A DNA stretch of 64,000 nt from Telmatobacter sp. DSM 110680 (GTDB lineage Bacteria; Acidobacteriota; Terriglobia; Terriglobales; Acidobacteriaceae). Below are positions 37,501 through 54,228 of the stretch, in pieces. The DNA lies in NCBI RefSeq assembly GCF_039994875.1, contig NZ_CP121196.1, forward strand, positions 1,178,001 to 1,242,000, in the 5' to 3' direction. The notes below the pieces were generated by a model. That model was not told where the DNA came from. It searched no databases and worked only from the letters and a program-made list of their open reading frames with translations. How positions within the stretch are numbered: the first letter of the stretch is position 1; each line of letters starts with the position of its first letter. Position numbers and translations under genes: made by a program.

Positions 37501-40050
37501 TGCCGGAGCGATGACGATTGTCTCGTTCTGGCTTGCGTTCTGTGCCGGGCTTCCAGAATCTGTCACTTTAACAGTGATGGGTGACGAGCCTGCTGCGGTA
37601 GGCGTTCCACCCACTGTGCAGCCGGTAAGGGTGAGGCCTGCCGGTAGCGCGCCTGTGATCGAGCAGGAATACGGAGGCGTTCCATCAGCTGCAGTAATAG
37701 TCGCGCTGTAGGGAGTTCCAACAGTTCCGCCAGGCAAAGTGTTGGTGATCGTCAGAGCAGCCGGAGCGATGACGATGGTCTCTGCCTGGCTCGCATTTTG
37801 TGCAGGACTTCCGGAGTCCGTAACCTTCACAGTAATTGGCGATGAACCTTGAGTCGTCGGTGTGCCGCTCACCGTGCAACCAGAAAGCGTGAGCCCTCCC
37901 GGCAACGTTCCGGTAATCGAACAGGTATACGGCGATGTGCCACCCGTTGCGCCAATCAGCGAGCTGTATGGCACACCGACCGTTCCATTTGGAAGCGTGT
38001 TCGTGAGCGTCAGGGCTGCGGGCGCTATCACGATGGTTTCGTTTTGACTTGCATTCTGCGCGGGGCTTCCAGCATCCGTGACCTTCACCAGAATCGTCGA
38101 GCTGCCAGAAGCTGTCGGCGTTCCGCTCACTGTGCATCCGGCCAGGCTCAAGCCCGCTGGCAAAGTTCCAGTGATCGAGCAACTGTAGGGAGTGGTACCA
38201 CCGCTCGCGGTGATATTCGCGCTATAAGCCACGCCGACCGTCCCGTTAGGCAGCGTATTTGTCAGCGCGAGAACCGGCGGAGCGATGACGATTGTTTCAA
38301 CCTGGCTCGCATTCTGTGCAGGGGTTCCAGAATCGGTGACCTTCACCGTGACCGTGGCGCTGCCTGCTGTTGTTGGAATGCCACTGACGACGCATGCGTT
38401 CAGCGACAGACCGGCAGGCAGTGTCCCCGTGATCGAGCAAGCATAAGGCGATGTCCCACCGCTTGCCGTGATCGTCGAACTGTATGCCACGCCAACTGTT
38501 CCGTTTGGCAGAGTGCTGGTGAGCGAAAGAGGAGTGGGAGAGATGATGATCGTTTCATTGGCACTGACGCTCTGCGAGGGCGTGCTGGAGTCAGTGACTT
38601 TTACTGTAATCGTCGAGGTCTGTGCCGTAGTGGGCGTGCCTGCAACGGAGCATCCTGACAGAGCGAGTCCCGCAGGCAGAGTTCCAGCAGTGATGGAACA
38701 GGTATACGGAGTCGTTCCACCGGTTGCGGAGATGGCCGCCGCGTACGACACGCCAACCGTGCCGTTCGGCAACGTGTTAGTAATGGCGAGCGGAGAATTG
38801 ATAGTGATGGAAACAGCAGCAGTCGCAGTTGCGCCGAGGGTGTCCTTCACCTGAACGGTGAAGCTTGACGTTCCCTTGTTAGTTGGCACACCGGAGATGA
38901 CGCCGGTCGTCGGAGAGATAGTGAGTCCGGCAGGAAGAGATCCCGCGACGACGCTCCACGCGTAAGGTGTCACGCCGCCTGAAGCGACGAACGAAGTTGT
39001 GTATGCGACGCCGACGGTGCCCTCAGGCTGCGGACCACCAACGAGCGTAAGCGGCGAAACAACAGTAATCGATGCAGTGGCGGTAGCGACCGCTGTTGTG
39101 CTGTCCTGTACTTGCACAACAAAAGTTGAAGTTCCGGGTGATGTCGGAGTTCCGGAGATAACGCCTGTTGTCGGAGAGATATTCAAACCGGCGGGGAGAG
39201 ATCCCGAAGCGATGCTCCAACTGTAAGGGGTTACTCCGCCTGCTGCTGTCAGCGAAGTCGTATAAGCGACGCCAACTTCGCCTTGTGGCTGCGGGCCACC
39301 TAACAGCGTAAGTGGCGGAACCGGATTTGAAATCAGAATCGATTCATTGGCAGTCACGGTGAAAGGCACAGAGCTCGCATCGGTCAACTGCAAGGTGAAC
39401 ATCGAAGTGCCGGCAGTCGTTGGTATCCCTGAGATGACGCCAGTTGCGGCGTTGAATGTGAGACCAGCGGGAAGTGTGCCACTCAGAACGGTGGTTGTTA
39501 ACGGCGCGGTGCCTCCTGCGGAGACGATCGTGGTGCTGTAGGCCTGGCCCACCACTCCTGCCGGCGGCACACCAGTCAGCGTTGGATCCGGATTCACCGT
39601 TATGCTTACGGTCTCCTGGCTTTTGGTGTTTGGGATTGCGGCGAGTAGCGTCACTTGCATTGGCGCTGTGATACCCGATGGTGCCGTATACGTAATTGTC
39701 GAACCATTGCTCGACGAGAGAGAGCCGCATGCACTTCCGTTGCACGAGTTGCCGGAGAAAGACCATGCGAGCTGATAAGTCCCGGTAAGATTTGCTGTGA
39801 TCTTCACAGACTGACCCGCATCGAGCACAAACGAAGTAGCCGAGAGGCTTGAGATTCCGCCGCCCGCATATCCTCCGCCTCCGCAACCACTGAGCACAAG
39901 ACACAGCAGAAGGAAAACCACGCTCAGCTGCGAAGCCAGCGATTTGGAATCGCTGAGAGACAGCGGCACGTTGCGGCTGACGTTAATCCGATTGCCTGCG
40001 CACGCAGGAAAGGTCTCGGGGATCACCATGGGGAATCTGACCTCCATCAA
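34552..40050 (-). CDS. Giant lipoprotein with 13 He_PIG/Ig-like repeats
   Basis: 1832 residues. After about 32 residues comes a lipoprotein signal (VVFLLLCLVLSGCGGGG, lipobox LSGC near residue 55), so the true start may be one of several internal codons. An Ig-like domain with bacterial Ig features follows. Then come 13 repeats of 80-90 residues with the core TLPNGTVGVAYS ... GTLPAGL ... SGTPT (about 155-1290). Repeats 4-12 each carry a cysteine pair (PYTCSI ... SGC), probably a disulfide per repeat. The C-terminal 500 residues contain repeated FTADGTGG segments common in acidobacterial surface proteins. Probably an adhesin or surface stalk. Confidence 0.78.
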   Translation of the reverse strand: MMEVRFPMVIPETFPACAGNRINVSRNVPLSLSDSKSLASQLSVVFLLLCLVLSGCGGGGYAGGGISSLSATSFVLDAGQSVKITANLTGTYQLAWSFSGNSCNGSACGSLSSSNGSTITYTAPSGITAPMQVTLLAAIPNTKSQETVSITVNPDPTLTGVPPAGVVGQAYSTTIVSAGGTAPLTTTVLSGTLPAGLTFNAATGVISGIPTTAGTSMFTLQLTDASSVPFTVTANESILISNPVPPLTLLGGPQPQGEVGVAYTTSLTAAGGVTPYSWSIASGSLPAGLNISPTTGVISGTPTSPGTSTFVVQVQDSTTAVATATASITVVSPLTLVGGPQPEGTVGVAYTTSFVASGGVTPYAWSVVAGSLPAGLTISPTTGVISGVPTNKGTSSFTVQVKDTLGATATAAVSITINSPLAITNTLPNGTVGVSYAAAISATGGTTPYTCSITAGTLPAGLALSGCSVAGTPTTAQTSTITVKVTDSSTPSQSVSANETIIISPTPLSLTSTLPNGTVGVAYSSTITASGGTSPYACSITGTLPAGLSLNACVVSGIPTTAGSATVTVKVTDSGTPAQNASQVETIVIAPPVLALTNTLPNGTVGVAYSANITASGGTTPYSCSITGTLPAGLSLAGCTVSGTPTASGSSTILVKVTDAGSPAQNASQNETIVIAPAALTLTNTLPNGTVGVPYSSLIGATGGTSPYTCSITGTLPGGLTLSGCTVSGTPTTQGSSPITVKVTDSGSPAQNASQAETIVIAPAALTITNTLPGGTVGTPYSATITAADGTPPYSCSITGALPAGLTLTGCTVGGTPTAAGSSPITVKVTDSGSPAQNASQNETIVIAPATLAITGTLPNGTVGSAYSTTITATGGTTPYTCSITGTLPAGLTLAGCTVSGTPTTAGSSPVVVKVTDSGSPAQNASSNETIVINPAALTITGSLPNGTVGSTYSATITASGGTSPYTCSISGTLPAGLILSGCTVSGTPTSAGSSTVTVTVTDSGSPTQNASKSETVTINPSPLTLTASTLPDGTVGVPYSAAIGVSGGTSPYSCTITSGTLPAGLTMTGCSVSGTPTTAGSSTVTVKVTDSESPSQSTSGPETIVINPAALTLNSTLPDGTVGVVYSATIGANGGTTPYSCSITTGTLPAGLSLTGCVISGTPTAVGTSNLTVTVTDASNPTKTVSGAESITIHPSGTLSLTGTLPIAIVGVPYSYTLKATGGNPPYTYALTAGSLPPGITLQSDGLISGTPTQPGATSFTATVTDSVSATASLPLILLVQYPSTPYDGELTGPYAYLFQGYDDVLAGVLAYQTATVGSFTADGTGGINLGELDANHQSSDPSGTTVQAQNFLGTYEINADSRGKITITTLNPDGTTDQTFTYAISLKAPVSPATVSTQGSLIEFDNDQLVGTKGSGQLLAQTPSSFSAGLKGSYAFGLSGDTPCLVSCTVGIASGPVATVGAFTANGSGSISAGTADTNIASFNFANAPVSGSYQTADQNGRVQLEMTNTSISDGLYPTNFAVYIVNANEAFILSTDKHSAYTLLAGTAELQTSGSFSNASMNGPFVGYEDAQSNPGLLGTTLQNVLNFSTATVFRASGNGAGTCDTTNFESGGLTSLVDNLTGLSNSNKSNLLEGLLGSYGATGTSACTVSSNGRGVLDYPNHSSLISILLGLLGLPTGPPDARVVYLVSPNHGYFLETGYAGLGHLEAQTGAPFSLATLKGTYVEGTIPASSLASINASGNFTADGAGNATYTLDENVGVGTLNVLQLGTSGSTTYSLSNPNGNATPATAGRYVFADGTTVVYAISPGRFVVIDTNPLTTSPTVSLLY

Positions 40051-40949: not shown

Positions 40950-41044
40950 TGGCGGAAGCGCGTGTGAGTCGAACACACCGTCGCCCGTGAAGGACGACCG
41001 CCGGTTTTGAAGACCGGGAGGATCACCGGAGCCTAAGCACTTCC
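40950..41044 (-). tRNA. selC: tRNA-Sec (anticodon TCA)
   Basis: Minus-strand cloverleaf with an 8-bp acceptor GGAAGTGC/GCGCTTCC, 5-bp T stem GTGTG/CACAC with loop TTCGACT, anticodon arm CCGGT-CTTCAAA-ACCGG giving UCA, a long variable arm (GTCGTCC...GGGCGAC), discriminator G and encoded CCA. The 8+5 acceptor/T architecture and D-loop TCCGGTGA match bacterial tRNA-Sec. The D stem is imperfect. It decodes UGA as selenocysteine with SelB and lies divergently 70 bases from selD. Confidence 0.95.
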
Positions 41045-41114: not shown

Positions 41115-42188
41115 ATGACATTGGAACCTCACCAGCCGATTCGTCTGACTCAGCAAGTGAAAGCTGGCGGCTGCGCCAGCAAGCTTCCTGCCGGCTCACT
41201 GCGGCAGGTGCTCTCTGCGCTTCCGGCACAAACCAGTCCTGATCTCGTTGTCGGGTTTGAAACTTCAGACGACGCCGGTATATTCCGCATTGGCCCTAAG
41301 CAGGCTCTAGTGCAGACGATCGACTTCTTCACCCCGCTGGTCGATGACCCATTTACATTTGGCCAGATCGCCGCAACGAATGCATTGAGTGATGTGTATG
41401 CCATGGGAGGTCGCCCTCTCACTGCGCTGGCCGTCGTCTGCTTCCCGCAGGATTCCGATCTTGGGATTCTGGAGCAAATCATGCGTGGCGGTCTTTCGAA
41501 AATGTCCGAAGCCAACTGCATCGTAGTAGGGGGACATTCAGTTCGAGATGTGGAGATGAAATTCGGTTATGCGGTCACGGGTCTTATCGATCCGGAGCGC
41601 GTCTACACAAATGCGGGAGCAGTTCCGGGAGACACACTGATCCTGACTAAGCCGATCGGCACGGGGGTGATCACTACAGCCCTGAAACAAGGCAAATCGG
41701 AAGCGGTGTGGGTGGATCACGCGATCCGTTCGATGACCACGCTCAACGGCACGGCATCCGCTCTGGCAATTGCTTGCTCAGGCGTTCACGCAATTACGGA
41801 CATTACAGGTTTTGGTCTTATGGGCCATGCACGCGAGATGGCATTGGGCAGTGGTGTGACCCTGGAGATCGAAACAGCTCATTTGCCGTTACTCGATGGC
41901 GCGTTGAGCGCGGTTCGCCTGGAGGCGATACCGGGAGGTCTGCTGGCCAATCGTGATTTTGCAGAGTGCCTCGTTCAGGATTCCGTAGGAAGCCAAATTC
42001 CGGATGATCTTCGTGCACTCCTTTATGATCCGCAGACATCAGGAGGGCTCCTCATTTCAGTGGCTCGTGAAAATGCGCCAGGATTGCTTGCGTCTTTCCA
42101 GAGAGAGGGTGTTCCTGCCGCCGTCATTGGATGCGTATCAGGTGCGTCGACGCCAGGAGCCCATGCACCCGCGATCATTTTGCGGTGA
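41115..42188 (+). CDS. selD: Selenide, water dikinase
   Basis: 357 residues. It makes selenophosphate from selenide and ATP for Sec-tRNA synthesis. The N-terminal active site is KAGGCASK: the cysteine and lysine match Cys17 and Lys20 of the E. coli enzyme, so this is a Cys-type, not Sec-type, SelD. The ATP-binding segments (DFFTPLVDDPFTFGQIAATNALSDVYAMGG region, about 75-105) and GLMGHA follow. First gene of a plus-strand run selD-selA-selB, 29 bases before selA. Confidence 0.95.
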   Translation: MTLEPHQPIRLTQQVKAGGCASKLPAGSLRQVLSALPAQTSPDLVVGFETSDDAGIFRIGPKQALVQTIDFFTPLVDDPFTFGQIAATNALSDVYAMGGRPLTALAVVCFPQDSDLGILEQIMRGGLSKMSEANCIVVGGHSVRDVEMKFGYAVTGLIDPERVYTNAGAVPGDTLILTKPIGTGVITTALKQGKSEAVWVDHAIRSMTTLNGTASALAIACSGVHAITDITGFGLMGHAREMALGSGVTLEIETAHLPLLDGALSAVRLEAIPGGLLANRDFAECLVQDSVGSQIPDDLRALLYDPQTSGGLLISVARENAPGLLASFQREGVPAAVIGCVSGASTPGAHAPAIILR

Positions 42189-42217
42189 TGCATTACTCTG
42201 ATTGAGGATTGCCCGCC

Positions 42218-43657
42218 ATGACACCAAGGAATCTCGTCGATGATGAAAAGCGCAACGCTCTCTATCAATCGTTGCCCTCTGTCAGTGAGGTTCTTTTGAT
42301 GCCGATGTGTCGCGAGTTTCTCAAATCATATTCGCGTGGCCAACTAGTTGACGCGATTCGCAGCACGCTTGCAGACCTTCGTTTCGAGATCTCGTCGGGT
42401 GATCACACGGTGCCTAGCATCCAAAATGACATTGATCAGATACCGAACGCTGTTGCCAGATACCTTACATTGGGCGCGGCCTATTCGCTTCGTCCCGTCA
42501 TCAATGCTACCGGTGTGATTCTCCACACCAATCTGGGTCGCGCACCGTTGAGCAGCGGGGCACTTCGGCATGTCGTAGAGGTCGCGCAGGATTACTGCAA
42601 CCTCGAACTCGACCTCGACACTGGTTTGCGCAGCCACAGAGACGCGCACGCTGAAGCTCTTTTGCTTCGCGTCCTGTCCCAGGAGAGCTCTGCCGTGGTT
42701 GAACCTGATGGTTACGGCGTCGTAGTTATAAACAACTGCGCGGCAGCTACCTTACTTGCGTTAAATTCCGTCGCTGAAAAGAGCGAGGTGATTGTATCGC
42801 GCGGCGAACTCGTCGAGATTGGCGGTGGCTTCCGCATTCCGGAGATTCTGGAGAAGTCTGGTGCAATCCTCAAGGAAGTGGGCACAACCAACCGCACTCG
42901 GATAGCCGACTATGAGAATGCGCTAAGTGCTGCTACGGGACTTTTATTGCGAGTGCATCAGTCAAATTTCAGCATGGAAGGGTTTGTCGAACGACCATCG
43001 TTGCAGGAAATGGTCACACTCTCAAAACGAGTGAAGTTGCCTTTGTTCGAAGATCAGGGTACTGGCCTGCTCTCCTCACTCGAGCGTGTCGGAGTCCGTG
43101 GAGAGCCAACCCTGATGCAGTCGTTTGAGTCTGGCGTAGACCTGATCGCCGCGAGCGGGGACAAATTGCTGGGCGGACCGCAGTGCGGCATTCTTGTGGG
43201 CAGGAGGGACCTAATCGAGCGCATTCGAAAGAACCCTCTGCTCAGAGCACTGCGTGTAGATAAGCTCACCTATGCAGCGCTTGAGGCTACGCTGCTTGAG
43301 CATTTGTCCGATGCTTCCGCGACCATTCCTGTTGAGCGAATGTTGAGCATCCCATCCGAGGAGATCATGTGCCGGTGTCGAGTGGTTGTCAACAAGACGA
43401 TGTCTGCTCGCATTGTTCTCGACGTGGTTCCGGTCAACAGCCTGGTTGGCGGAGGAACGGCACCGAAAGCGTCGTTGCCGAGTTGCGCAATCTCGATACG
43501 GCATAGTGTGTTGTCGGCATCGGATCTGCTTGGGGCGCTTCGGAGGCTTGAACCTCCGATCATCGGACGTATCGAGGAAGATGTGGTGCTGCTCGATTTA
43601 CGCACTGTCCCTTCGAGTTTTGACGGCGACCTCAGCTCTCTTCTCTCAAGTCTCTGA
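42218..43657 (+). CDS. selA: L-seryl-tRNA(Sec) selenium transferase
   Basis: 479 residues from ATG 42218, chosen because the GAGGA ribosome site at 42204-42208 is 9 bases away; an in-frame TTG at 42209 is too close to it. A PLP enzyme that converts Ser-tRNA(Sec) to Sec-tRNA(Sec). The family motif NATGVILHTNLGRAPLS and the PLP-lysine region SGDKLLGGPQCG are present. Tightly placed between selD and selB. Confidence 0.95.
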   Translation: MTPRNLVDDEKRNALYQSLPSVSEVLLMPMCREFLKSYSRGQLVDAIRSTLADLRFEISSGDHTVPSIQNDIDQIPNAVARYLTLGAAYSLRPVINATGVILHTNLGRAPLSSGALRHVVEVAQDYCNLELDLDTGLRSHRDAHAEALLLRVLSQESSAVVEPDGYGVVVINNCAAATLLALNSVAEKSEVIVSRGELVEIGGGFRIPEILEKSGAILKEVGTTNRTRIADYENALSAATGLLLRVHQSNFSMEGFVERPSLQEMVTLSKRVKLPLFEDQGTGLLSSLERVGVRGEPTLMQSFESGVDLIAASGDKLLGGPQCGILVGRRDLIERIRKNPLLRALRVDKLTYAALEATLLEHLSDASATIPVERMLSIPSEEIMCRCRVVVNKTMSARIVLDVVPVNSLVGGGTAPKASLPSCAISIRHSVLSASDLLGALRRLEPPIIGRIEEDVVLLDLRTVPSSFDGDLSSLLSSL

Positions 43658-43695: not shown

Positions 43696-45591
43696 ATGAC
43701 CAGCCAGCCCAGATCGATTGTCATCGGAACCGCGGGTCACATTGATCACGGCAAGACCACACTTGTTCGCGCCCTCACAGGCATTGATGCCGACCGGCTG
43801 CCTGAGGAAAAGCGACGCGGCATCACAATCGATCTTGGATTTGCCTCGTTCGATACGAAACTGCCGAATCAATCTCCGATGCGAATCAGTTTCGTAGATG
43901 TTCCCGGGCATAGCCTCTTCATCCGCAATATGCTCGCGGGCGCCGGATGCGTCTCTGCTGTCATGCTCGTCGTCGCAGCTGACGAGGGGGTCATGCCGCA
44001 GACGGTTGAGCATCTTGCAATCTGCGAACTTCTGGGGATCTCGCATGGAATTACGGTGATTACTAAAACGGATGCAGTCGATGCTACTCGGCTGGTGGAG
44101 ATGCAAAAGTCAGTCGAGTCCTTTCTGCAAGGTACGTTTCTCGAGCGTGATCATGGTGCCGTGGTGCCCGTTAGCGCCGCGTCCGGGGAAGGTATGGATG
44201 CCCTGCGAACTGCTTTAAGGGATCTTGCGACGCGGCTACACATCACCACCTCAGACGCGTTGATGCGGATGCCTGCCGATCGCTCATTCGTCATGAAGGG
44301 GTTTGGCACCGTCGTTACAGGGACACTGCTGTCAGGAACGATCCGCGAGGGCCAAACGCTGCAACTGGAGCCAGGAAATCGCGCAGTGCGTGTTCGCGGA
44401 TTACAGAGCCACGGCGAGCCCCAACAGACTGCGCAACCCGGTTCTCGCGTCGCTGTGAATCTTTCCGGCGTGGATGCAACGGAAGTGCATCGAGGTCAGA
44501 CGCTCGTTCTGCCCAATACCCTGCGGGCGGTCGACTTGATCGACGTGGAGATTGAGCTTCTTAAGAGCGCGCCAAAGCTGAAGCATCGGGCCAGTGTTCA
44601 TTTCCACGCTCTGACTTCCGAGACCATGGCCAACGTTTCACTATACGGATATGAAGCGGTTCAACCAGGATCAGTTCGCCTCGCACGCTTGAAGCTTACA
44701 GAGCCGATCGTTCTGGTTCCGGGTGATCGTTTCGTGATTCGGTTGCCATTGCCTGCCGGAACCATTGGCGGCGGACGCGTTCTCGATGCCAGTCCGGAGG
44801 CGCGCTTGCGCAAGGCTGTCACACTTTCGTGGCTCGAGCAAATCAAGGGCAGTTCTACAGAACAACAAATTGAGCTGCGCGTCGGCCGTCGCAAGACGAC
44901 TGGGATTACGCTTGATGCTCTCTCGATCGAAACGGGCTTGTCCATAGACGCGGTGCGGCGTCTCATCCATCCTGCGGTGCGACGCGGAAGCCTCCTGTTC
45001 GTCACGGACGATCTGCTACTGAGCAGGGAAGGATTGGTAGCTGCCGCCAGCGCGATCATGGCGCGCCTGCAGGTTGGACAACCGACCGCAAAGAGATCTG
45101 AGTTGCGCAGCCAGACGAGCCTCAAGGCCGAGATTTTTGAATTCGCGATTCAGTCACTCCTGCGAGAGCAAAAAGTAGAGGTATCCGGCGAGACGGTCTC
45201 TATCTACAGGGCGACACGAAATTCTTCGGATGCTGAAAGCGAGCAATTGACAGCGGTGGCTCGAATTTACGAAGCGGCTGGCCTTGCGTCTCCTTCTGTT
45301 ACTGAACTTGCAGCGAGGCTCAAACTTGGAGAAGCCGAGATCAGGCGACGCGTCACGATTCTCCAGCGCAATATGACCATCGTGCGGATGGGCAATGATG
45401 ACCTGTTTATCCATTCTGCAGCGCTTCAACAGCTTGCCGCGCAGATTACCGCGCTTCGCGGGAGTGTGATGGATGTTGGCCGATTCAAGCAGATCACCGG
45501 ACTTTCCCGAAAATATGCGATCCCTTTACTCGAATACCTGGACCGCCAGCACATCACGCGCAAAAAAGGAGATGAGCGCGTGGTGCTCTAG
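43696..45591 (+). CDS. selB: Selenocysteine-specific elongation factor
   Basis: 631 residues. N-terminal GTPase with [13 protein letters not shown] (P-loop), DVPGHSLF (G3) and TKTDA (G4), then EF-Tu-like domains 2-3. The C-terminal winged-helix repeats (about 370-631) bind the SECIS hairpin of selenoprotein mRNAs; the end ([21 protein letters not shown]) is the classic SelB WH4. It delivers Sec-tRNA(Sec) to UGA codons. The two UGA-containing genes begin less than 80 bases downstream. Confidence 0.95.
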
Positions 45592-45668: not shown

Positions 45669-46256
45669 TTGAATTTGCCTGACCACGAGACCAAGATCGA
45701 GCTCATCGAGGATAAAGACGCGACCGGCGAAGTTGCCGAGGTCTACGAACAATGGCGCGCCAAGTCGGGGCGCCAGCAAATGCCCGGTATTTTGAAGTGC
45801 TTCAGCCATCGCCCTGACTTTCTTCGCCAGGTGATGCAATTCAGCGACACCGTACATTTTTCTCAGGGACATCTCGACCGGCGAACCAAGGAAGCGATCG
45901 CGAGCTGGGTATCATGGCTCAATCGCTGTCCTTATTGACTGGACTCTCATGCATACTTCCTGCGTGTTCAGGGAGCCGAAGAGAGTGCGGTAATAGCAAT
46001 AGCGAAGGGCAATCTGGAAGAAGCGGGCTTGACCCCTGCGGAACGTGCATTGCTTGACTACGTAACTAAAGTGACAGAAGCGGCCTATCGAACAACGAGC
46101 GAGGACGTGCAGGGACTTCGGAATCATGGTTGGACGGAACGGCAGATCGCTGAGGCGGTTTACATCACGGCGATGTTTGCGTTTTTTAATCGAGTTGCCG
46201 ACGCGTTCGGGATTGCGCCGCAGGGTTACCTTGAGATGAATGGGTTGACGAAGTAG
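45669..46256 (+). CDS. AhpD-like selenoprotein (CxxU active site), UGA at 45936-45938
   Basis: Read through the in-frame TGA this is a 195-residue AhpD/carboxymuconolactone-decarboxylase-fold protein. TTG 45669 is chosen because GGGAGA lies 5 bases upstream; GTG 45633 is an alternative. The active site is E75...C87-P-Y-U90-L-D-S-H94. Spacings of 12, 3 and 4 residues equal those of Glu118, Cys130, Cys133 and His137 in mycobacterial AhpD. Sec thus replaces the second, reactive cysteine. The frame is open and AhpD-like on both sides of the TGA (TPAERALLDYVTKVTE follows). AhpD proteins are thiol peroxidases/disulfide reductases. It lies 77 bases after selB, followed at 7 bases by the second selenoprotein gene. 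Confidence 0.88.
45956..45975 (+). promoter_or_regulatory. Bacterial SECIS-like hairpin of the AhpD-like gene
   Basis: Stem CTTCCTG (45956-45962) pairs fully, with one G-U, to CAGGGAG (45969-45975) around the loop CGTGTT. The loop starts 24 bases after the UGA and has G in its second position. Both fit the known bacterial SECIS rules for SelB recruitment (apical loop roughly 16-37 bases downstream, G among its first two bases). Confidence 0.7.
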
Positions 46257-46263
46257 GAGAGGC

Positions 46264-46992
46264 ATGGACGGAACCAAAAAGAGACGTATGCGCAACTGGC
46301 TCATCAGTGCCGCGGTGGTCTGTTTTGCGGGCTGGCTTTGTCTTGTGAGTTACGTCAACTGGGCAATGCATCAGTCGCCGGAAGTCTTCGGCCATGTAAT
46401 GGCCCGGATGCCGATGCCCGCGTATTTTGTGCTTCCGTTCGAGACTCTCTGGATGCGGGCGCGTGGTGGGCAATTGAATGTAGGTGATGCCGCTCCTGAT
46501 CTGACTGTGAAAAAACTCGAAGACCATAGTCCGACCGAGTTAGCATCGCTCTGGGCGGACAGACCGGTCGTTTTGGTCTTCGGCAGCTATACGTGACCCC
46601 CTTTTCGGCGGGAGGTTCCCGCCCTGAATAAACTGGCGGATCAGTACAAGGACAAGATCGGCTTCTACGCCGTGTACATCCTTGAAGCGCACCCCACCGA
46701 CGTATGGCAGATGCAATCCAACGTGCGCGATAACGTTCTTTTCAGTAGTCCCAAGGATGAGGTAGAACGCGCGTATGTTGCCGGCGCGTGTGTACGCAAG
46801 CTGGGCATCAAATTTCCGGCGCTGGTTGACGGTTTCGACAATCGAGTTGAGTCCGCCTACACAGGCTGGCCCGACCGACTCTACCTGGTCGGTAAAGGCG
46901 GGCGCGTTCTATACAAGAGCAAGCCCGGCCCCTTCGGCTTTCATCCCGACGACCTTGCGCAGGCCATCACGAAGTCGTTGCCCACGAACTGA
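46264..46992 (+). CDS. Deiodinase-family (thioredoxin-fold) selenoprotein, UGA at 46594-46596
   Basis: 242 residues with Sec111 encoded by TGA. The N-terminus is a membrane anchor (LISAAVVCFAGWLCLVSYV, about 13-31). The thioredoxin-like domain has the active-site sequence VLVFGSYT-U-PPF, the same as the FGSxTUPxF motif of iodothyronine deiodinases. Further family marks after the TGA are YAVYILEAHPTDVW (compare IYIxEAHxxDGW) and a C-terminal WPDRLYLVGKGGRVLYK. Homology runs continuously across the TGA, so this is not a frameshifted pseudogene. Bacteria lack thyroid hormone; a reductive dehalogenase-like or thiol-redox role is inferred. Follows the AhpD-like gene by 7 bases. Confidence 0.9.
46607..46623 (+). 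promoter_or_regulatory. Bacterial SECIS-like hairpin of the deiodinase-like gene
   Basis: GGCGGG (46607-46612) pairs with CCCGCC (46618-46623) around loop AGGTT; an extra A-T pair can close inside. The loop begins 16 bases after the UGA and has the G-G-U character of the E. coli fdhF SECIS loop. It lies within the coding sequence as expected for bacterial SECIS. Confidence 0.75.
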
Positions 46993-50400: not shown

Positions 50401-50476
50401 ACATCTTTCCTTCTATGGCGAACAATGTCTCGCCGAAACTTAATCTTGTGCCGGGTGCATGAGTCGAACCTTATGG

Positions 50477-50550
50477 AGCGCGTGATAGGGCTCGAACCCA
50501 CAACCTTCGGCTTCGGACGCCGACGCTAAATCCGTTTGAGCTTCACACGC
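50477..50550 (-). tRNA. tRNA-Arg(CCG)
   Basis: Acceptor GCGTGTG/CACGCGC, anticodon arm TCGGC-GTCCGAA-GCCGA, T loop TTCGAGC, CCA encoded at 50474-50476. The D arm (GCTCAAACGGATTTAGCG) pairs poorly, so it is the weakest of the Arg tRNAs here. Confidence 0.8.
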
Positions 50551-50567
50551 GTGGACTACAACACTGG

Positions 50568-50640
50568 AGCCGTCCGCGGGACTTCAACCCGCATCTTCAT
50601 CGTTAGGACCGATACGCTCTTTGCATTGAGCTAGGACGGC
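50568..50640 (-). tRNA. tRNA-Arg(CCT)
   Basis: Acceptor GCCGTCC/GGACGGC, D arm GCTC...GAGC, anticodon arm TATCG-GTCCTAA-CGATG, T stem GCGGG/CCCGC with loop TTGAAGT (G at position 56 instead of C). CCA encoded. Confidence 0.88.
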
Positions 50641-50653
50641 GTAGAACATCTGG

Positions 50654-50728
50654 AGCGCCAGGCAGGACTCGAATCTGCGTGCGGCGGCTTTAGAAGTGCC
50701 GTGCCTCATCCATCTCGGCCACTGGCGC
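50654..50728 (-). tRNA. tRNA-Arg(TCT)
   Basis: Acceptor GCGCCAG/CTGGCGC, anticodon loop CTTCTAA in stem CGGCA/AGCCG (closing A-A mismatch), T arm GCAGA-TTCGAGT-CCTGC, CCA encoded. Reads AGA. Confidence 0.87.
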
Positions 50729-50736
50729 ATAATTGG

Positions 50737-50821
50737 TGGAGCCGGTGGGACTTGAACCCACATTGGGATTTCTCCCGCTGATTAAAAGTCAGGTCTCTGC
50801 ATCCGATTCGAGTACGACTCC
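50737..50821 (-). tRNA. tRNA-Lys(TTT) with an unusual long variable arm
   Basis: Acceptor GGAGTCG/CGGCTCC, anticodon loop CTTTTAA inside TGA...TCA as in ordinary tRNA-Lys, T arm GTGGG-TTCAAGT-CCCAC, CCA encoded. Between anticodon and T arms lies GGGA-GAAA-TCCC, a GNRA-capped hairpin, plus AAT. Lys tRNAs are class I with a 5-base variable loop, so this class II-like arm is abnormal. Confidence 0.75.
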
Positions 50822-50829
50822 AAAGCTGG

Positions 50830-50935
50830 TGGGTCAGCGGGAAGTCGAATCCCGTCCGAGCAGCTGCAAACCCAGAGTTACACATCGCGGAGCCGCTTCA
50901 GCGCAGTCGCCGCGACCAACAGGGAACGGCGACCC
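50830..50935 (-). pseudogene. Degenerate tRNA-like sequence
   Basis: A good 3' end is present: T arm CGGGA-TTCGACT-TCCCG, acceptor strand CTGACCC, discriminator A and CCA. A possible 5' partner GGGTC occurs at 50931-50935, making a unit of about 106 nt. No standard anticodon arm can be drawn between them; instead there is a strong separate hairpin GTCGCCG...CGGCGAC near the 5' end. It may be a broken tRNA invaded by a repeat. Isotype not assignable. Confidence 0.4.
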
Positions 50936-51003
50936 ATGAAGGTTCAGACGATGGCACGTCTTAAGAGCCGCCTATGCTGCCGTCAAGACCTGTGACCTAT
51001 TGG

Positions 51004-51079
51004 TGGAGGTATCGGGAGTTGAACCCGGAGACTCGCGCTTATAAGGCGCGGGCTACATACCGGTAGCAGCTATACCTCC
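51004..51079 (-). tRNA. tRNA-Ile(TAT)
   Basis: Acceptor GGAGGTA/TACCTCC, D arm GCTGC...GTAGC, anticodon arm CGCGC-CTTATAA-GCGCG, T arm CCGGG-TTCAACT-CCCGA, CCA encoded. An UAU anticodon reads AUA directly; most bacteria use lysidine-modified CAU instead. Confidence 0.88.
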
Positions 51080-51088
51080 AAATCGTGG

Positions 51089-51203
51089 TGGCTGCGGTCA
51101 GATTCGAACTGACTACTTTGCGCTTAAGGACCGGGGTCCCCGGCGACAGGTCTTCGTCGCTGGGGTGGTGAGACGCCTGCTCATCCGCGTGAGCTTCGCA
51201 GCC
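51089..51203 (-). tRNA. tRNA-Lys(CTT) interrupted in the anticodon loop by a 42-nt palindromic element
   Basis: Both tRNA parts are well formed: acceptor GGCTGCG/CGCAGCC, D arm GCTC...GAGC, T arm GTCAG-TTCGAAT-CTGAC, CCA encoded. Joining GGCGTCT (5') to CTTAAGCGC (3') restores a canonical Lys loop CTCTTAA. The sequence between (51129-51170) is a hairpin CCCCAGCGAC...GTCGCCGGGG with one mismatch. The insertion is at U33/C34. Either the RNA is spliced or the gene is dead; it is far too short for a group I intron. Confidence 0.65.
51129..51170. repeat. Palindromic repeat element inside tRNA-Lys(CTT)
   Basis: 42 bases. Core CCCCAGCGAC-GAAGACCT-GTCGCCGGGG on the minus strand forms a 10-bp hairpin with one A-C mismatch. 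Seventeen bases (GGCGACAGGTCTTCGTC, 51142-51158) recur exactly in inverted orientation at 53832-53848 next to the Ser-like unit. This behaves like a REP-type dispersed palindrome. Confidence 0.65.
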
Positions 51204-51208
51204 GCTGG

Positions 51209-51282
51209 CGAGGGTGGCGGGCTTCGAACCCGCTTCATTCGGCTTTGGAGGCCGACGTTCTACCAGTCTGAACTTCACCCTC
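51209..51282 (-). tRNA. tRNA-Trp(CCA)
   Basis: Acceptor GAGGGTG/CACCCTC, D arm GTTC...GAAC, anticodon arm TCGGC-CTCCAAA-GCCGA, T arm GCGGG-TTCGAAG-CCCGC, discriminator G, CCA encoded. Well formed. Confidence 0.93.
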
Positions 51283-51303
51283 ATTTTCAAAGATCAATAA
51301 AGA

Positions 51304-51323
51304 ACCCCGACCTGAGTCGGGGT
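51304..51323 (-). terminator. Terminator-like hairpin just upstream of tRNA-Trp
   Basis: ACCCCGAC-tcag-GTCGGGGT, 8 bp perfect on the minus strand, followed by TCTTTATT. It ends 21 bases before the 5' end of tRNA-Trp and lies about 150 bases downstream of tRNA-Arg(ACG). Confidence 0.6.
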
Positions 51324-51477
51324 CTGGTGCTCATTCGACGCATGCACTCAGACCCTCAAGACGCGGCTCCCCAAATGACCCGCTTGCCGGTCATTCTGAC
51401 TATGTCGCGTTTGAAGGTCCTAAGCATCATGTCAATTCACCATCAGAACGTTTGCGAAACTACGGTTCAATTTGTGG

Positions 51478-51551
51478 AGCGTCCGGCAGGACTCGAACCT
51501 GCGTGCACTTCGTTCGTAGCGAAGGCCATCAATCCGCTCTGGCACGGACGC
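51478..51551 (-). tRNA. tRNA-Arg(ACG)
   Basis: Acceptor GCGTCCG/CGGACGC, anticodon arm CTTCG-CTACGAA-CGAAG, T arm GCAGG-TTCGAGT-CCTGC, CCA encoded. D stem of 3 bp. A34 would need deamination to inosine by TadA to read CGU/CGC/CGA. Confidence 0.92.
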
Positions 51552-51563
51552 TCAAAACTTTGG

Positions 51564-51635
51564 TCGGGGAACTCAGAATTGAACTGAGTCCACGTGCTCC
51601 CAAGGCACGGATGCAACGCATTACACCATTCCCCG
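51564..51635 (-). tRNA. tRNA-Pro(TGG)
   Basis: Acceptor CGGGGAA/TTCCCCG with the C1-G72 start typical of bacterial tRNA-Pro, anticodon arm CGTGC-CTTGGGA-GCACG, T arm CTCAG-TTCAATT-CTGAG, CCA encoded. Confidence 0.92.
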
Positions 51636-51639
51636 ATGG

Positions 51640-51712
51640 TGCCAGCCCAGCGAGTTGAACGCTGCTCTCTCCGTTTTCAGCGGAGCGTATCGACCGCGCA
51701 TACGCGACTGGC
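51640..51712 (-). tRNA. tRNA-Phe(GAA)
   Basis: Acceptor GCCAGTC/GGCTGGC, D arm GTAT...ATAC, anticodon arm CTCCG-CTGAAAA-CGGAG, T arm CAGCG-TTCAACT-CGCTG, CCA encoded. The next tRNA 5' end (Pro) follows after a single base. Confidence 0.92.
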
Positions 51713-51721
51713 GAAATCTGG

Positions 51722-51795
51722 TGGACCTAGTCGGCTCTGCCCCGACCGCCTCCGCATTGCAAGTGCGGCGCTCTCCCTGAATGAGCTATAGGCCC
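51722..51795 (-). tRNA. tRNA-Ala(TGC) with non-consensus T loop
   Basis: Acceptor GGGCCTA/TAGGTCC, D arm GCTC...GAGC, anticodon arm CCGCA-CTTGCAA-TGCGG, T stem GTCGG/CCGAC, CCA encoded. The T loop is GGCAGAG, lacking T54, T55 and the usual TTC, so D-T loop docking should be impaired. It also lacks the G3-U70 pair in the usual sense but has G3-T70 here, consistent with Ala identity. Confidence 0.8.
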
Positions 51796-51830
51796 GAAAC
51801 TGTGCCGGGGAATTTCATCCCGGCGATAAG

Positions 51831-51907
51831 GGTGGCCGGTGGGAGTTGAACCCACAAGAGACATGAGTCACAGTCATGCCCGACGTTCCGATAGTCGGCA
51901 CGGCCAC
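51831..51907 (-). tRNA. tRNA-His(GTG)
   Basis: Acceptor GTGGCCG/CGGCCAC, D arm CCGAC...GTCGG, anticodon arm CATGA-CTGTGAC-TCATG, T arm GTGGG-TTCAACT-CCCAC. Discriminator C as expected for His. The base before G1 is T rather than the usual encoded G-1, and CCA is replaced by CCT, so 3' addition would be needed. Confidence 0.82.
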
Positions 51908-51913
51908 AGTTGG

Positions 51914-51986
51914 AGCACCCGGGGTTACTCGAAAACCCATTCTGCTGATTACAGGTCAGCCGCTCTTCCACTTGAGCTACAGGTGC
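51914..51986 (-). tRNA. tRNA-Thr(TGT) with C33
   Basis: Acceptor GCACCTG/CGGGTGC, D arm GCTC...GAGC, anticodon arm GCTGA-CCTGTAA-TCAGC, T arm GGGTT-TTCGAGT-AACCC, CCA encoded. Position 33 is C instead of the near-universal U. Confidence 0.85.
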
Positions 51987-51997
51987 AATCTCGTTGG

Positions 51998-52070
51998 AGC
52001 CGGCAGCAGGGCTTTAACCCGCATCCTTCGCCATACCGAGGCGACACTCTGACAATTGAGCTATGCCGGC
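51998..52070 (-). tRNA. tRNA-Thr(GGT) with C33
   Basis: Acceptor GCCGGCA/TGCCGGC, D arm GCTC...GAGT, anticodon arm TCGCC-TCGGTAT-GGCGA, T arm GCGGG-TTAAAGC-CCTGC, CCA encoded. C33 replaces U33 and the T loop has A at position 56. Seven bases separate it from the HNH gene stop. Confidence 0.82.
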
Positions 52071-52076
52071 TGAACT

Positions 52077-52589
52077 TCAGTAGTACAGATACTTCCTCCA
52101 CTTCTCCTCGCCGATTCCTGTCTGGCGCATGAAAGCACGAGAGGTGTGAATCGTCACGCGGCGCGGCTGACGGAGCAACTTCATGCCTGCTTCCGTCGGA
52201 GTCCGATCTGCCTTGCGCGCGTTGCAGTCGCGACACGCGGCAACCAGGTTTTCCCACGTGCTCTGTCCGCCTCGAGCGCGAGGAATTACATGCTCCAGTT
52301 CCAAGTCGCTGCTCAAGAACTTCTCGCCGCAATACTGGCAAATGTGTCCGTCGCGAATGAGGATGTTCTTCCTCGATAGCGTCTGGATCCGCAGCGGCAA
52401 ACGCCGATACTGGCGAAGGCGAATGACACAAGGCAATTGCAGGCCGACATGCACATACCGATCGTGTGCCTCTTCGATCACGGCAACACCCTTGATGAGC
52501 AACACGAGGGCACGGCGAGCACGTGTAATGTTCACGGGCTCATAGCTCGCATTGAGCACTAGTACTGGCATTGTCATCGCACTCGTCAT
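52077..52589 (-). CDS. HNH endonuclease inside the tRNA array
   Basis: 170 residues. An N-terminal domain (VLVLNASYEPVNIT, typical of the widespread stand-alone HNH family) is followed by a zinc-ribbon HNH core. CQYCG (about 84-88) and C-x-x-C (CRDC, about 118) bind zinc, and LEHVIPRARGG (about 97-107) with ENLVAACRDCN supplies the catalytic His/Asn/His. This family is common in Acidobacteria, cyanobacteria and planctomycetes and its role is unknown. The gene starts 22 bases after Thr(CGT) and stops 7 bases before Thr(GGT) on the same strand, so it is probably co-transcribed with the tRNAs. Confidence 0.85.
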   Translation of the reverse strand: MTSAMTMPVLVLNASYEPVNITRARRALVLLIKGVAVIEEAHDRYVHVGLQLPCVIRLRQYRRLPLRIQTLSRKNILIRDGHICQYCGEKFLSSDLELEHVIPRARGGQSTWENLVAACRDCNARKADRTPTEAGMKLLRQPRRVTIHTSRAFMRQTGIGEEKWRKYLYY

Positions 52590-52610
52590 ATAGCCTCTCC
52601 TGTGTCTTGG

Positions 52611-52683
52611 AACTGGCGGCCGGAATCGAACCGGCTTCGTCCTCGTTACGAATGAGGTGCATTACCCTCTCTGCCACGCCAGC
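52611..52683 (-). tRNA. tRNA-Thr(CGT)
   Basis: Acceptor GCTGGCG/CGCCAGT (closing G-U), D arm GCA...TGC, anticodon arm CCTCA-TTCGTAA-CGAGG (one A-C mismatch next to the loop), T arm GCCGG-TTCGATT-CCGGC, CCA encoded. Confidence 0.87.
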
Positions 52684-52712
52684 AAACACATACTCCTCAA
52701 TCAAACTCATGG

Positions 52713-52784
52713 AGCGGCTGGCCGGAGTTGAACCGGCGATCTCCGCGCTGGCGACGCAGCGTCTTACCGCTCGACTACAGCCGC
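52713..52784 (-). tRNA. tRNA-Gly(GCC) with C33
   Basis: Acceptor GCGGCTG/CAGCCGC, D arm GTC...GAC, anticodon arm CTGCG-TCGCCAG-CGCGG, T arm GCCGG-TTCAACT-CCGGC, CCA encoded. C33 replaces U33. Confidence 0.85.
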
Positions 52785-52795
52785 TCATCTTCTGG

Positions 52796-52923
52796 CTCCG
52801 GGAGGGGGATTCGAACTTGAGCCGCTTTGCGGGTGTTGGAATCCGCAGGCGAAATCCTGAGCGAAGCCGAAGGACCCATCCGCGGTTCCAAAGACCACTG
52901 TCCTGCCATTAGACGATCCCGGA
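52796..52923 (-). tRNA. tRNA-Gln(TTG) interrupted after the anticodon arm
   Basis: Acceptor TCCGGGA/TCCCGGA, D arm GTC...GAC and anticodon arm GTGGT-CTTTGGA-ACCGC are intact, discriminator G and CCA are encoded. After the anticodon stem about 50 extra bases intervene. They contain TCCTTCGGCTTCGCTCAGGA, a hairpin-forming sequence common as a dispersed repeat in many bacterial genomes. The 3' T-stem strand is CCCCC but its 5' partner is lost. At 128 nt it is probably a pseudogene unless the insert is removed. Confidence 0.6.
52824..52886. repeat. Palindromic insert inside tRNA-Gln(TTG)
   Basis: The minus strand carries GGAACCGC ... GCGGATTCC, pairing across an inner hairpin TCCTTCGGCTTCGCTCAGGA. 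The inserted element therefore also pairs with the 3' half of the anticodon stem. Exact ends cannot be fixed without an uninterrupted homologue. Confidence 0.5.
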
Positions 52924-52999
52924 ATATTCATCCTTCACTTTGCTTAGACACACTCCACTTATCCATGCCAGTTACTTCACTGACATAGTGACTAACTGG

Positions 53000-53072
53000 C
53001 TGGCGAGCAAGGCTTCAAACCTTGACTTTCCGCGTTCAGAGCGCGGCGTGTTCCCAGTTACACCACTCGCCA
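53000..53072 (-). tRNA. tRNA-Gln(CTG)
   Basis: Acceptor TGGCGAG/CTCGCCA with the U1-A72 start typical of tRNA-Gln, D arm GTGT...ACAC, anticodon arm CCGCG-CTCTGAA-CGCGG, T arm CAAGG-TTTGAAG-CCTTG, discriminator G, CCA encoded. Confidence 0.92.
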
Positions 53073-53082
53073 CTAATGTTGG

Positions 53083-53155
53083 CTGCGCAGGCGGGAGTCG
53101 AACCCGCATAACCCTGATTAACAGTCAGGTTCTCTGCCAGTTGAGATACCGCGCA
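53083..53155 (-). tRNA. tRNA-Asn(GTT)
   Basis: Acceptor TGCGCGG/CTGCGCA, D arm TCTC...GAGA, anticodon arm CCTGA-CTGTTAA-TCAGG, T arm GCGGG-TTCGACT-CCCGC, discriminator G, CCA encoded. First tRNA after the hairpin at 53172-53203. Confidence 0.93.
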
Positions 53156-53171
53156 ATGTTGCCCAGAAACT

Positions 53172-53203
53172 AAAAAACCCCTGACCTTGTTGAAGGCCGG
53201 GGG
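53172..53203 (-). terminator. Intrinsic terminator-like hairpin upstream of tRNA-Asn
   Basis: On the minus strand CCCC-CGG-CCTT-caac-AAGG-TCA-GGGG is followed directly by six T. It ends 16 bases before the 5' end of tRNA-Asn. Confidence 0.75.
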
Positions 53204-53324
53204 CTCGAGTCTCCTGAATTGGAGCTATATCTCGCTAGTCCGGCCAGAACACGGTGATACCCTGTCGCGTCAGTTGCGCCCACGCGGTGGGTATAAATCC
53301 GTGATTGAGTCGGAGCATCATGAC
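53172..53324 (-). ncRNA. Candidate small RNA or attenuated leader between tRNA blocks
   Basis: A minus-strand unit bounded by a promoter-like pair (53331-53336 and 53355-53360) and the terminator-like hairpin at 53172-53203. It would give an RNA of about 150 nt. It has internal hairpin potential (CCACCGCGTGG) but matches no RNA family I recognise. It could be an independent small RNA or the regulated leader of the Asn-Gln-Gly-Thr block. Confidence 0.3.
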
Positions 53325-53330
53325 CTAGGT

Positions 53331-53360
53331 ACTTTACCCCGACTTAGTTTCAAAAGTCAA
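53331..53360 (-). promoter_or_regulatory. Sigma-70-like promoter inside the tRNA array
   Basis: Minus-strand TTGACT (53355-53360), 18-base spacer, TAAAGT (53331-53336). Expected start near 53324, in the 311-base tRNA-free gap between Glu and Asn. Confidence 0.45.
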
Positions 53361-53467
53361 ATGCGAACGCTGCAACTATTAGTCACCTATGGATCTTGGG
53401 TACTAACATCTCGAACAATTGCGGGCGGCGTGCACGCAGAACGTCGTGCACCATCATTGAAGTTTGG

Positions 53468-53539
53468 TCACGCCGACCAGAGTTGAACTGGCATTCGCGC
53501 CTTGAAGGGACGCTGGCCTAACCGTTAGCCGACGGCGTG
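53468..53539 (-). tRNA. tRNA-Glu(TTC) with C33
   Basis: Acceptor CACGCCG/CGGCGTG, D arm GGC...GCC, anticodon arm GCGTC-CCTTCAA-GGCGC, T arm GCCAG-TTCAACT-CTGGT, CCA encoded. C33 replaces U33 and position 1 is C, both odd for Glu. Confidence 0.8.
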
Positions 53540-53551
53540 ATCCGTTGTTGG

Positions 53552-53625
53552 CGCGGCCGACCGGATTCGAACCGGCATCTGCTCGATCGACAATCGAGAG
53601 CTTTCGCCGTTTAAGTTACAGCCGC
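53552..53625 (-). tRNA. tRNA-Asp(GTC)
   Basis: Acceptor GCGGCTG/CGGCCGC, anticodon arm CTCGA-TTGTCGA-TCGAG, T arm GCCGG-TTCGAAT-CCGGT, discriminator G, CCA encoded. D stem CTT/AAG of 3 bp. Confidence 0.88.
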
Positions 53626-53643
53626 GCGTGTACAAACTTTTGG

Positions 53644-53729
53644 TGGGTGTGGAAGGATTCGAACCCTCAATACTCCAAAGAGCCCCGGGGTTACGGCCCG
53701 GTGGGGCAACCAGTCGCCCCAACACACCC
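53644..53729 (-). tRNA. tRNA-Tyr(GTA) with C33
   Basis: Class II tRNA. Acceptor GGGTGTG/CACACCC, D stem GGGGC/GCCCC, anticodon arm CCGGG-CCGTAAC-CCCGG, variable arm CTC...GAG, T arm GAGGG-TTCGAAT-CCTTC, CCA encoded. C33 replaces U33. Confidence 0.85.
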
Positions 53730-53737
53730 ACATTTAG

Positions 53738-53848
53738 CGGAGACAGCGCGAGTCGAACGCGCAAGCCCCGAAGGTACGTCCCGCTTCGGACGGGATGGGC
53801 TTTCCAATGCCCAACGCTACCCCACCCCCGAGACGAAGACCTGTCGCC
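53738..53848 (-). pseudogene. Ser-like tRNA lacking a normal 5' part, fused to the palindromic repeat
   Basis: The 3' part is good: T arm GCGCG-TTCGACT-CGCGC, acceptor strand TGTCTCC, discriminator G (then CTA instead of CCA). Upstream a nested hairpin GTCCCGCTTCGGACGGGA and GGGC-ATTGGAAA-GCCC (GGA in an 8-base loop) resemble a Ser variable and anticodon arm. The expected 5' strand GGAGACA and D arm are missing; the 17-base repeat GGCGACAGGTCTTCGTC lies there and could pair with the acceptor with one mismatch. Confidence 0.45.
53832..53848. repeat. Second copy of the 17-base palindrome segment
   Basis: GACGAAGACCTGTCGCC is the exact reverse complement of 51142-51158 inside tRNA-Lys(CTT). Both copies are located at tRNA genes. 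Confidence 0.7.
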
Positions 53849-53866
53849 AGGGATCTCAATTCTCGG

Positions 53867-53953
53867 CGGTAGGAGCAGGACTTGAACCTGCACACGCCTT
53901 GCAACGTGAGCCTCGACTCCAACGAGGTGCGATACCGTTCCGCTCATCCTACC
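53867..53953 (-). tRNA. tRNA-Ser(GGA)
   Basis: Class II. Acceptor GGTAGGA/TCCTACC, anticodon arm CCTCG-TTGGAGT-CGAGG, variable arm CACG...CGTG, T arm GCAGG-TTCAAGT-CCTGC, discriminator G. The 3' end is CCG rather than CCA. Confidence 0.85.
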
Positions 53954-53968
53954 GACGAAACAAACTGG

Positions 53969-54056
53969 CGGAGACGATCCGATTCGAACGGATGGTGCCT
54001 TTCAAAGGCACTCCGCGTTAGCAGTGCGGCGCCATAGACCACTCGGCCACGTCTCC
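53969..54056 (-). tRNA. tRNA-Ser(GCT)
   Basis: Class II. Acceptor GGAGACG/CGTCTCC, D arm GCC...GGC, anticodon arm CCGCA-CTGCTAA-CGCGG, variable arm GTGCC...GGCAC, T arm ATCCG-TTCGAAT-CGGAT, discriminator G, CCA encoded. Confidence 0.92.
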
Positions 54057-54069
54057 ATGAATCTCTTGG

Positions 54070-54151: not shown

Positions 54152-54228
54152 ACGACTTACTAACTCCGTATGACCTAGATACACCTCGAGCGATCAGGTT
54201 CCTAAGCGCAAACCTGTCGACGAATTGG

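Follow-up and report, generated by a model that had tools for sequence, protein, structure and literature searches.

Organization of the locus

The DNA analysed here, referred to as the window, is a stretch of 64,000 nucleotides from Telmatobacter sp. DSM 110680 (NZ_CP121196.1, positions 1,178,001 to 1,242,000; coordinates below are counted from its first nucleotide). It contains dio, a reading frame that, with one internal TGA codon read as selenocysteine (Sec), encodes a predicted deiodinase-like selenoprotein of 242 residues. As a preliminary description of this DNA had stated, dio adjoins its own Sec machinery, since the genes for tRNA-Sec, SelD, SelA and SelB are found just upstream. A second selenoprotein gene, absent from that description, directly precedes dio at a distance of seven bases and codes for an AhpD-like protein with a CPYU motif. 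Hence, dio is the last gene of a selD-selA-selB-ahpD(Sec)-dio(Sec) cassette, which is seen again in close relatives. The features are as follows.

40954..41044, minus strand: tRNA-Sec, anticodon TCA (RF01852, 68.4 bits, gathering threshold 47; ARAGORN)
41115..42188, plus strand: selD, without an in-frame TGA (TIGR00476, 368.6 bits, cut-off 125)
42209..43657, plus strand: selA (TIGR00474, 495.2 bits, cut-off 267.9)
43696..45591, plus strand: selB (TIGR00475, 395.5 bits, cut-off 242.25)
45669..46256, plus strand: ahpD-like (CMD) selenoprotein gene, CPYU, TGA at 45936-45938, TTG start assumed (PF02627, TIGR01926)
46256..46262, plus strand: Shine-Dalgarno-like GGAGAGG upstream of the dio ATG (sequence)
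46264..46992, plus strand: dio, predicted deiodinase-like selenoprotein, 242 residues, Sec111 (PF00837, structural model, Dio2/Dio3 structural matches)
46297..46365, plus strand: predicted N-terminal membrane anchor of dio, residues about 12-34 (hydropathy, charge, helix in the model)
46594..46596, plus strand: in-frame TGA taken as Sec, FGSYT-U-PPF (TGA conserved in the covering loci)
46607..46623, plus strand: candidate bacterial SECIS, 6-bp stem GGCGGG/CCCGCC, loop AGGTT (synonymous recoding p 0.006; two-sided pair changes)

Over 45672-46256, with its TGA read as Cys, the AhpD-like gene matches PF02627 at E 7.7e-19 and TIGR01926 with 104.4 bits (cut-off 81.8). Elsewhere in the window, a dense array of 24 tRNA genes occupies 50474-54305 on the minus strand (ARAGORN), with an extra tRNA at 51722-51795 that was detected by Rfam and not by ARAGORN. 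An open frame of 1832 residues at 34552-40050, likewise on the minus strand, is built of repeats whose appearance, judged by eye, is Ig-like.

The dio gene encodes a predicted member of the deiodinase family

The dio frame starts at the ATG at 46264 and ends with the TGA at 46990-46992; the only other in-frame TGA is that at 46594-46596. Reading this codon as Sec yields the motif FGSYTUPPF and, in the same frame, the segment YILEAHPTDVW (translation around Sec: ...VVLVFGSYTUPPFRREVPALNKL...YAVYILEAHPTDVWQ...). The membership in the deiodinase family that had been proposed for this protein was borne out by a Dio-type predicted fold (see below) and by profile searches with hmmscan, in which PF00837 (T4_deiodinase) matched the whole protein with an E-value of 5.3e-28 (98.4 bits, cut-off 27) and the part following the TGA alone with an E-value of 4.3e-17 (62.6 bits). 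The lack of a family match beyond the TGA, which the preliminary description had named as an objection, is thereby excluded. The closest PDB sequences were mouse Dio3 (5.2e-17) and Dio2 (8.9e-17), followed by ResA (7.2e-5; phmmer), and PF00578 also matches dio in hmmscan. Positions 177-341 of the NCBIfam model NF038285 ("deiodinase family protein") match dio with 188.2 bits; this score is under the 250-bit cut-off of that model, and the first half of its 347 positions is unmatched. On this evidence, dio is predicted to be a PF00837-family selenoprotein of an acidobacterium.

The in-frame TGA is conserved among homologues

A homologue scan with one genome per species returned 44 loci, all acidobacterial by taxon name. 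Each of the 41 loci that cover the site has TGA at this position, while three others (L041, L042, L044) stop short of it, and few residues of the protein are better conserved than those flanking the TGA; the in-frame Sec codon suggested by the preliminary description thus holds. In an enlarged set comprising more loci and the window, with some genomes repeated, TGA was found in 59 of 60 covering rows, a count that leaves out the weaker matches L065-L070 (E 5.9e-5 to 9.9e-4, without an internal stop). The lone Cys belongs to L064, a 36% match with an E-value of 1.5e-8.

Conservation of this kind bears on the view that the TGA is a true stop and that dio is either broken or represents two separate genes, a view that we regard as very improbable. 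Translation table 11 reads TGA as a stop and the dio frame can also be read from a GTG at 46672, as this view would have it; against it stand the TGA in all 41 covering loci among the 44 found, the invariant or nearly invariant residues P112, P113, F114, R115 and R116 right past the TGA, and a low dN beyond it. Comparison of the post-TGA part with four relatives gave dN values of 0.08-0.18 and dS values of 1.0-2.7, of which the larger are saturated.

PF00837 matches occur in 136 of 399 Terriglobia genomes, and at least 115 of the 399 have a TGA inside the match, the place of the TGA being confirmed in the fetched loci only; one of these 115 genomes (G150) has three different stops inside its match. 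PF00837 rows without a stop number 31 among the matches listed, and most of these appear to be of another architecture because 20 of the 31 have open frames of more than 300 residues. One genome (G650; L118 and others) has six PF00837 matches, some with an internal TGA and some without a stop. In the phylum as a whole, 38 of 396 genomes have PF00837 matches, and the family is therefore far from general.

A SECIS-like hairpin lies within the coding region

The candidate SECIS begins 10 bases past the TGA, and its AGGTT loop is, we presume, like that of the E. coli fdhF SECIS. All six of its pairs form in the window, which only 0.6% of 500 synonymous recodings equalled, and its folding energy compared with 1000 synonymous recodings gave p 0.006 for bases 10-36 and p 0.05 for bases 4-48 after the start of the TGA. 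Dinucleotide shuffles of the wider stretch, by contrast, left the folding unremarkable (z -1.1 and -1.4). The hairpin claimed in the preliminary description therefore stands against synonymous recoding, though not against shuffling. Among 79 distinct homologous stretches, summed pairing amounted to 75.0 against 50.9 +/- 1.2 in recodings, a difference that relatedness inflates. When one missing pair is tolerated, 65 of the 79 stretches fit the register of the window, 10 fit a register four bases downstream, and four fit neither. Both sides of the stem have changed in these sequences: each of the two pairs adjoining the loop is G-C in 46 and C-G in 19 of the 65 rows, and the second pair from the stem base is G-C in 43, T-A in five and mismatched in 16. 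Taken singly, L013, L058 and L059 (p 0.44-0.46) and numerous sequences of the sister clade (p 0.34-0.56) do not reach significance. This sister clade (L071-L100) is acidobacterial and carries Sec, and some of its members fit the hairpin shifted by four bases. The pairing of the dio hairpin exceeds what the coding function requires.

The AhpD-like neighbour and the cassette in relatives

L001, L002, L004-L007, L011 and L024 share the order selB-ahpD(TGA)-dio with the window. L008 has selB-dio without ahpD, L009 and L034 have ahpD-dio with no selB in the stretch, and the sel genes of L010 are on the opposite strand. Neither sel genes nor such an ahpD were found in the stretches examined, many of them short, of L012-L033 and L035-L044. 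The ahpD TGA is present in all six distinct stretches caught by a pattern search, and 23 bases shortly past it are identical in the six rows, which hints at a separate RNA signal of ahpD; an ahpD hairpin was, however, not borne out by comparison with synonymous recodings (MFE p 0.28 and 0.25). A natural Cys variant of AhpD in L011 was considered and rejected, as the ahpD of this locus has TGA and the Cys presumably stems from a second match. The Cys-bearing AhpD match in L003 is a 28% match only.

Co-occurrence of dio with Sec decoding

An E-value of 0.001 did not discriminate for RF01852, since all 99 genomes and all 14 controls matched; we therefore counted a tRNA-Sec only above 55 bits, a limit of our own choosing that lies within a gap between 56.9 and 52.1. 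By this measure, eight of the 59 genomes of the window's genus possess a tRNA-Sec, and all eight carry dio. Two further genomes, 74-75% complete, have dio without a strong tRNA-Sec, and one more has a dio fragment only. The association (Fisher 2e-8, phylogeny being ignored) suggests which proteins keep Sec decoding in this genus.

With SelA called at an E-value of 1e-60, the matches listed for the 399 Terriglobia genomes give 110 with SelA and a TGA-bearing dio, five with dio only, 180 with SelA only and 104 with neither; most genomes with SelA therefore lack a TGA-bearing dio. In one of the five TGA-dio genomes without SelA at this threshold (G327, 98% complete, TGA-bearing ahpD and dio at C3:27640-28928), a search for PF03841 gave no match, and no SelA was found; either a contig is missing or Sec is made otherwise. 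TGA-bearing AhpD at E 1e-50 was found in 14 of the 399 genomes, and 13 of the 14 also have TGA-dio among the matches listed.

The window's own genome has three molybdopterin-oxidoreductase matches, none with an internal stop, so that a Sec-containing formate dehydrogenase is not an evident reason for its Sec decoding. None of its 17 AhpC/TSA (PF00578) matches has an internal stop either; this search missed dio itself and is therefore weak as to other TGA-bearing genes. Among seven CMD matches, TGA occurs in one, at the AhpD place only. When neighbours outside the window's clade were clustered in 30 loci, the commonest, TonB-type receptor-like by eye, was present in seven. A plasmid search with dio gave one matching record, from Mycolicibacterium, with 29.5% identity over 60% of the query; the plasmid gene in question (NZ_CP126902.1:138737-139138) is annotated as a deiodinase-like protein. 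The dio group is present in Occallatibacter savannae AB23, Edaphobacter lichenicola X5P2 and KBS 83, whose records are titled as strains, not metagenome bins, and which are presumably cultured.

The protein is predicted to be anchored in the membrane

An N-terminal membrane anchor as in deiodinases had been proposed, and both a hydrophobic segment (mean hydropathy 2.19 over the best 19 residues) and a helix spanning residues 3-35 in the AlphaFold model agree with it. Of 105 distinct homologue segments, 97 have a hydrophobic stretch (mean of at least 1.6) ahead of the domain; start codons were not fixed in this survey, and some segments may extend past the true start. By the positive-inside rule, the positively charged flank of such a segment is the cytoplasmic side. 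The net charge of dio is +4 between the Met and the segment and -1 past it, and the N-terminal side is the more positive one in 76 of the 97 homologue segments. The charges of the anchor therefore predict an N-in orientation that would place the domain outside. Taking family identity, Sec at the TGA and the N-terminal anchor jointly, we set the probability at roughly 0.9, a figure that does not include the substrate.

Predicted structure and active site

An AlphaFold (AF2) model of the protein, computed from a 42-row alignment of our choosing with Cys in place of Sec, has a mean pLDDT of 92.6 and adopts a thioredoxin fold of the Dio type. Its best structural matches are mouse Dio2 (Z 23.1; 2.4 A over 169 residues) and Dio3 (Z 22.5; 2.1 A over 168 residues), with Bcp/Prx, DsbE and ResA types next at Z 16.8 and lower. 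Foldseek likewise ranks Dio2 and Dio3 on top, then ResA. Judged from the model, the Prx and ResA matches would reflect the common fold only.

The residues Ser167, Thr169, Sec170, Tyr197, Glu200 and His202 of Dio3 correspond to S108, T110, U111, Y138, E141 and H143 of dio, all invariant in the 42 rows, as are P113, F114 and A142; Trp207 corresponds to W148, kept in 40 of the 42. Excerpts of PMC7506546 and PMC11592359 ascribe to this Ser/Thr/Tyr/Glu/His/Trp set the anchoring of an omega-loop and a proposed proton relay in deiodinases. Other Dio3 positions have changed. The place of Cys168 is taken by Tyr (39 rows), Phe (two) or His (one), and the column of His219 (163) holds Pro in 40 and Ala in two of the 42 rows. 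Arg275 belongs to the Arg/Lys clamp for the thyronine carboxylate; its aligned column (221) holds Pro in 30 of the 42 rows and Arg or Lys in none, while 25 of the 42 have Lys or Arg in column 220, one ahead of it; Dio1 is said, in an excerpt of PMC7506546, to have its Arg at the position corresponding to column 220. No second Cys is invariant in the 42 rows, the best being C176 (33 of 42). The third residue past Sec is Phe throughout, and there is neither a CxxC nor a UxxC motif. With the Dio network kept, His219 lost and Arg275 absent from its aligned place, the alignment points to Dio-type chemistry, probably on another substrate; the chemistry looks conserved, more so than the contacts with the substrate.

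Relation to the animal enzymes

A 103-row tree was computed with two animal rows, 12 loci having been omitted beforehand and rows with an X or fewer than 100 post-Sec residues dropped. In it, the two mouse Dio rows side with the other acidobacterial Sec clade (type L071), with weak support (87/77) and on a very long branch, so that we are unsure of their placement, and the suggestion that the window protein might display the ancestral chemistry of the family was not sustained. L071 also matches mouse Dio3 better (1.7e-30) than the window protein does (5.2e-17; phmmer). Seven Cys rows fall separately from both clades, among a few divergent Sec rows.

Proposed function and alternatives

We infer the orientation of the protein, Sec incorporation in the cell, all reaction steps and the substrate, and propose the following course of events. 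SelB, directed by the hairpin 10 bases past the UGA, would insert Sec111; the N-terminal helix would anchor the protein, with the thioredoxin-fold domain probably in the periplasm. As in animal deiodinases, Ser108/Thr110 together with a network of Tyr138-Glu141-His143-Trp148 would keep Sec111 in position, and this residue might attack a soft electrophile and remove a heteroatom, with the network protonating the leaving part. The selenolate would then be restored by an external thiol or redox protein, since a second invariant Cys is lacking.

Sequence alone cannot separate peroxide, halide and disulfide substrates. We favour the function of a thiol-dependent, periplasm-facing selenoperoxidase; a hydroperoxide has, in our estimate, about even odds of being the substrate class, an organohalide is clearly less probable, and a protein or small disulfide the least probable of the three. 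Reductive dehalogenation is the main rival of the selenoperoxidase. In a true reductive dehalogenase, the selenolate would take X+ from a haloaromatic compound and the Glu-His network would protonate the carbanion, as in animal deiodinases. Retention of the Dio segment EAHPxDxW (E, A and H invariant in the 42 rows, W kept in 40), which is missing from the ResA alignment, and the UPPF following Sec, the same as in Dio, speak for such an enzyme; the replacement of His219 by Pro or Ala in every row and the absence of Arg275 from its aligned place speak against it, as does an excerpt of PMC1088965, which argues that one would not expect bacteria of this kind to have thyroid hormones, and we consider it unlikely. 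Genome context, for which neighbouring genes were clustered, speaks neither for nor against a dehalogenase. Still less likely is an enzyme of the ResA/CcmG type, a periplasmic thiol-disulfide reductase using Sec incidentally. ResA is second to Dio both in sequence and in Foldseek, and Prx, DsbE/ResA and CcmG types all reach Z 15-17 (VIA table), but a CxxC or UxxC motif is lacking, Phe is the third post-Sec residue in all 42 rows, and C176, the best candidate for a second Cys, is present in 33 of them.

A proposal compatible with any of these chemistries is that the AhpD-like selenoprotein donates electrons specifically to DIO, in the way that AhpD acts as the adaptor for AhpC; an excerpt of PMC3141380 calls AhpD an essential adaptor protein. 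The seven-base spacing, the adjoining genes in close relatives and the presence of TGA-dio in nearly all genomes with TGA-AhpD among the matches listed would fit this partnership. Yet the window AhpD lacks a counterpart at E 1e-50 in 102 of the 115 TGA-dio genomes among the matches listed; moreover, AhpD has no export signal by eye, so that the outward position of the DIO domain predicted from the charge pattern speaks against direct reduction by a cytoplasmic-looking AhpD. We hold this partnership to be doubtful. More speculative, and in our opinion improbable, is the notion that a large, Sec-using and periplasm-facing acidobacterial branch of the deiodinases removes halogen heterolytically from natural organohalogens by means of another substrate pocket and would be, together with Sec-AhpD, a main reason why the window's genus keeps Sec decoding. 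Whichever substrate the preferred selenoperoxidase or its rivals may use, the dio group has an animal-type active-site network, though not every thyronine contact, and in the window's clade an adjoining Sec machinery, and it offers a workable system in which to ask what role deiodinase-type chemistry has beyond thyroid hormone.

Comparison with known systems

Bacterial deiodinase-like selenoproteins were published in 2005 from the Sargasso Sea; an excerpt of that report gives four Sec sequences, mentions Cys homologues and proposes a redox role (PMC1088965). A 2008 study of the GOS data has 22 deiodinase-like entries, which we take as Sec sequences, with the motif given as "-" in the table excerpted (PMC2398784); UPPF may therefore not be new. 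Excerpts of reviews of 2022 and 2026 give the family motif as UxxC, which differs from the UPPF of dio, and the excerpt of the 2026 review states that most selenoproteins of this sort have no known function. Three selenoprotein families in Acidobacteria are reported in an excerpt of PMC1794560 in which the word deiodinase does not occur. The literature that we searched, which covered few subscription papers, held no account of an acidobacterial deiodinase-like group or of a sel-ahpD-dio cassette. Hence, dio is a new member of a known bacterial selenoprotein family, not the first of its kind.

Mouse Dio3 (4tr3) and Dio2 (9h48) share with dio the predicted fold, the GSxTUPPF motif and the N-terminal membrane anchor at 25-27% identity, and the Tyr197/Glu200/His202/Trp207 network of Dio3 is also present in dio. 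The differences from Dio3 are Pro for His219, Tyr for Cys168 and an Arg275 missing at the aligned place; in contrast to the animal deiodinases, dio has its hairpin within the coding region. With the Sargasso Sea and GOS proteins, as excerpted from PMC1088965 and PMC2398784, it has in common the PF00837 family, a bacterial selenoprotein and a bacterial SECIS; those proteins come from marine metagenomes, whereas the dio group is acidobacterial and adjoins selDAB. The AhpD-like selenoprotein (TIGR01926, CxxU) recalls the clusters of Prx-like and AhpD-like genes in an excerpt of PMC13188914, which likewise consist of two adjoining Sec redox genes, one of them AhpD-like; here, however, the partner is deiodinase-like and both genes lie downstream of selDAB.
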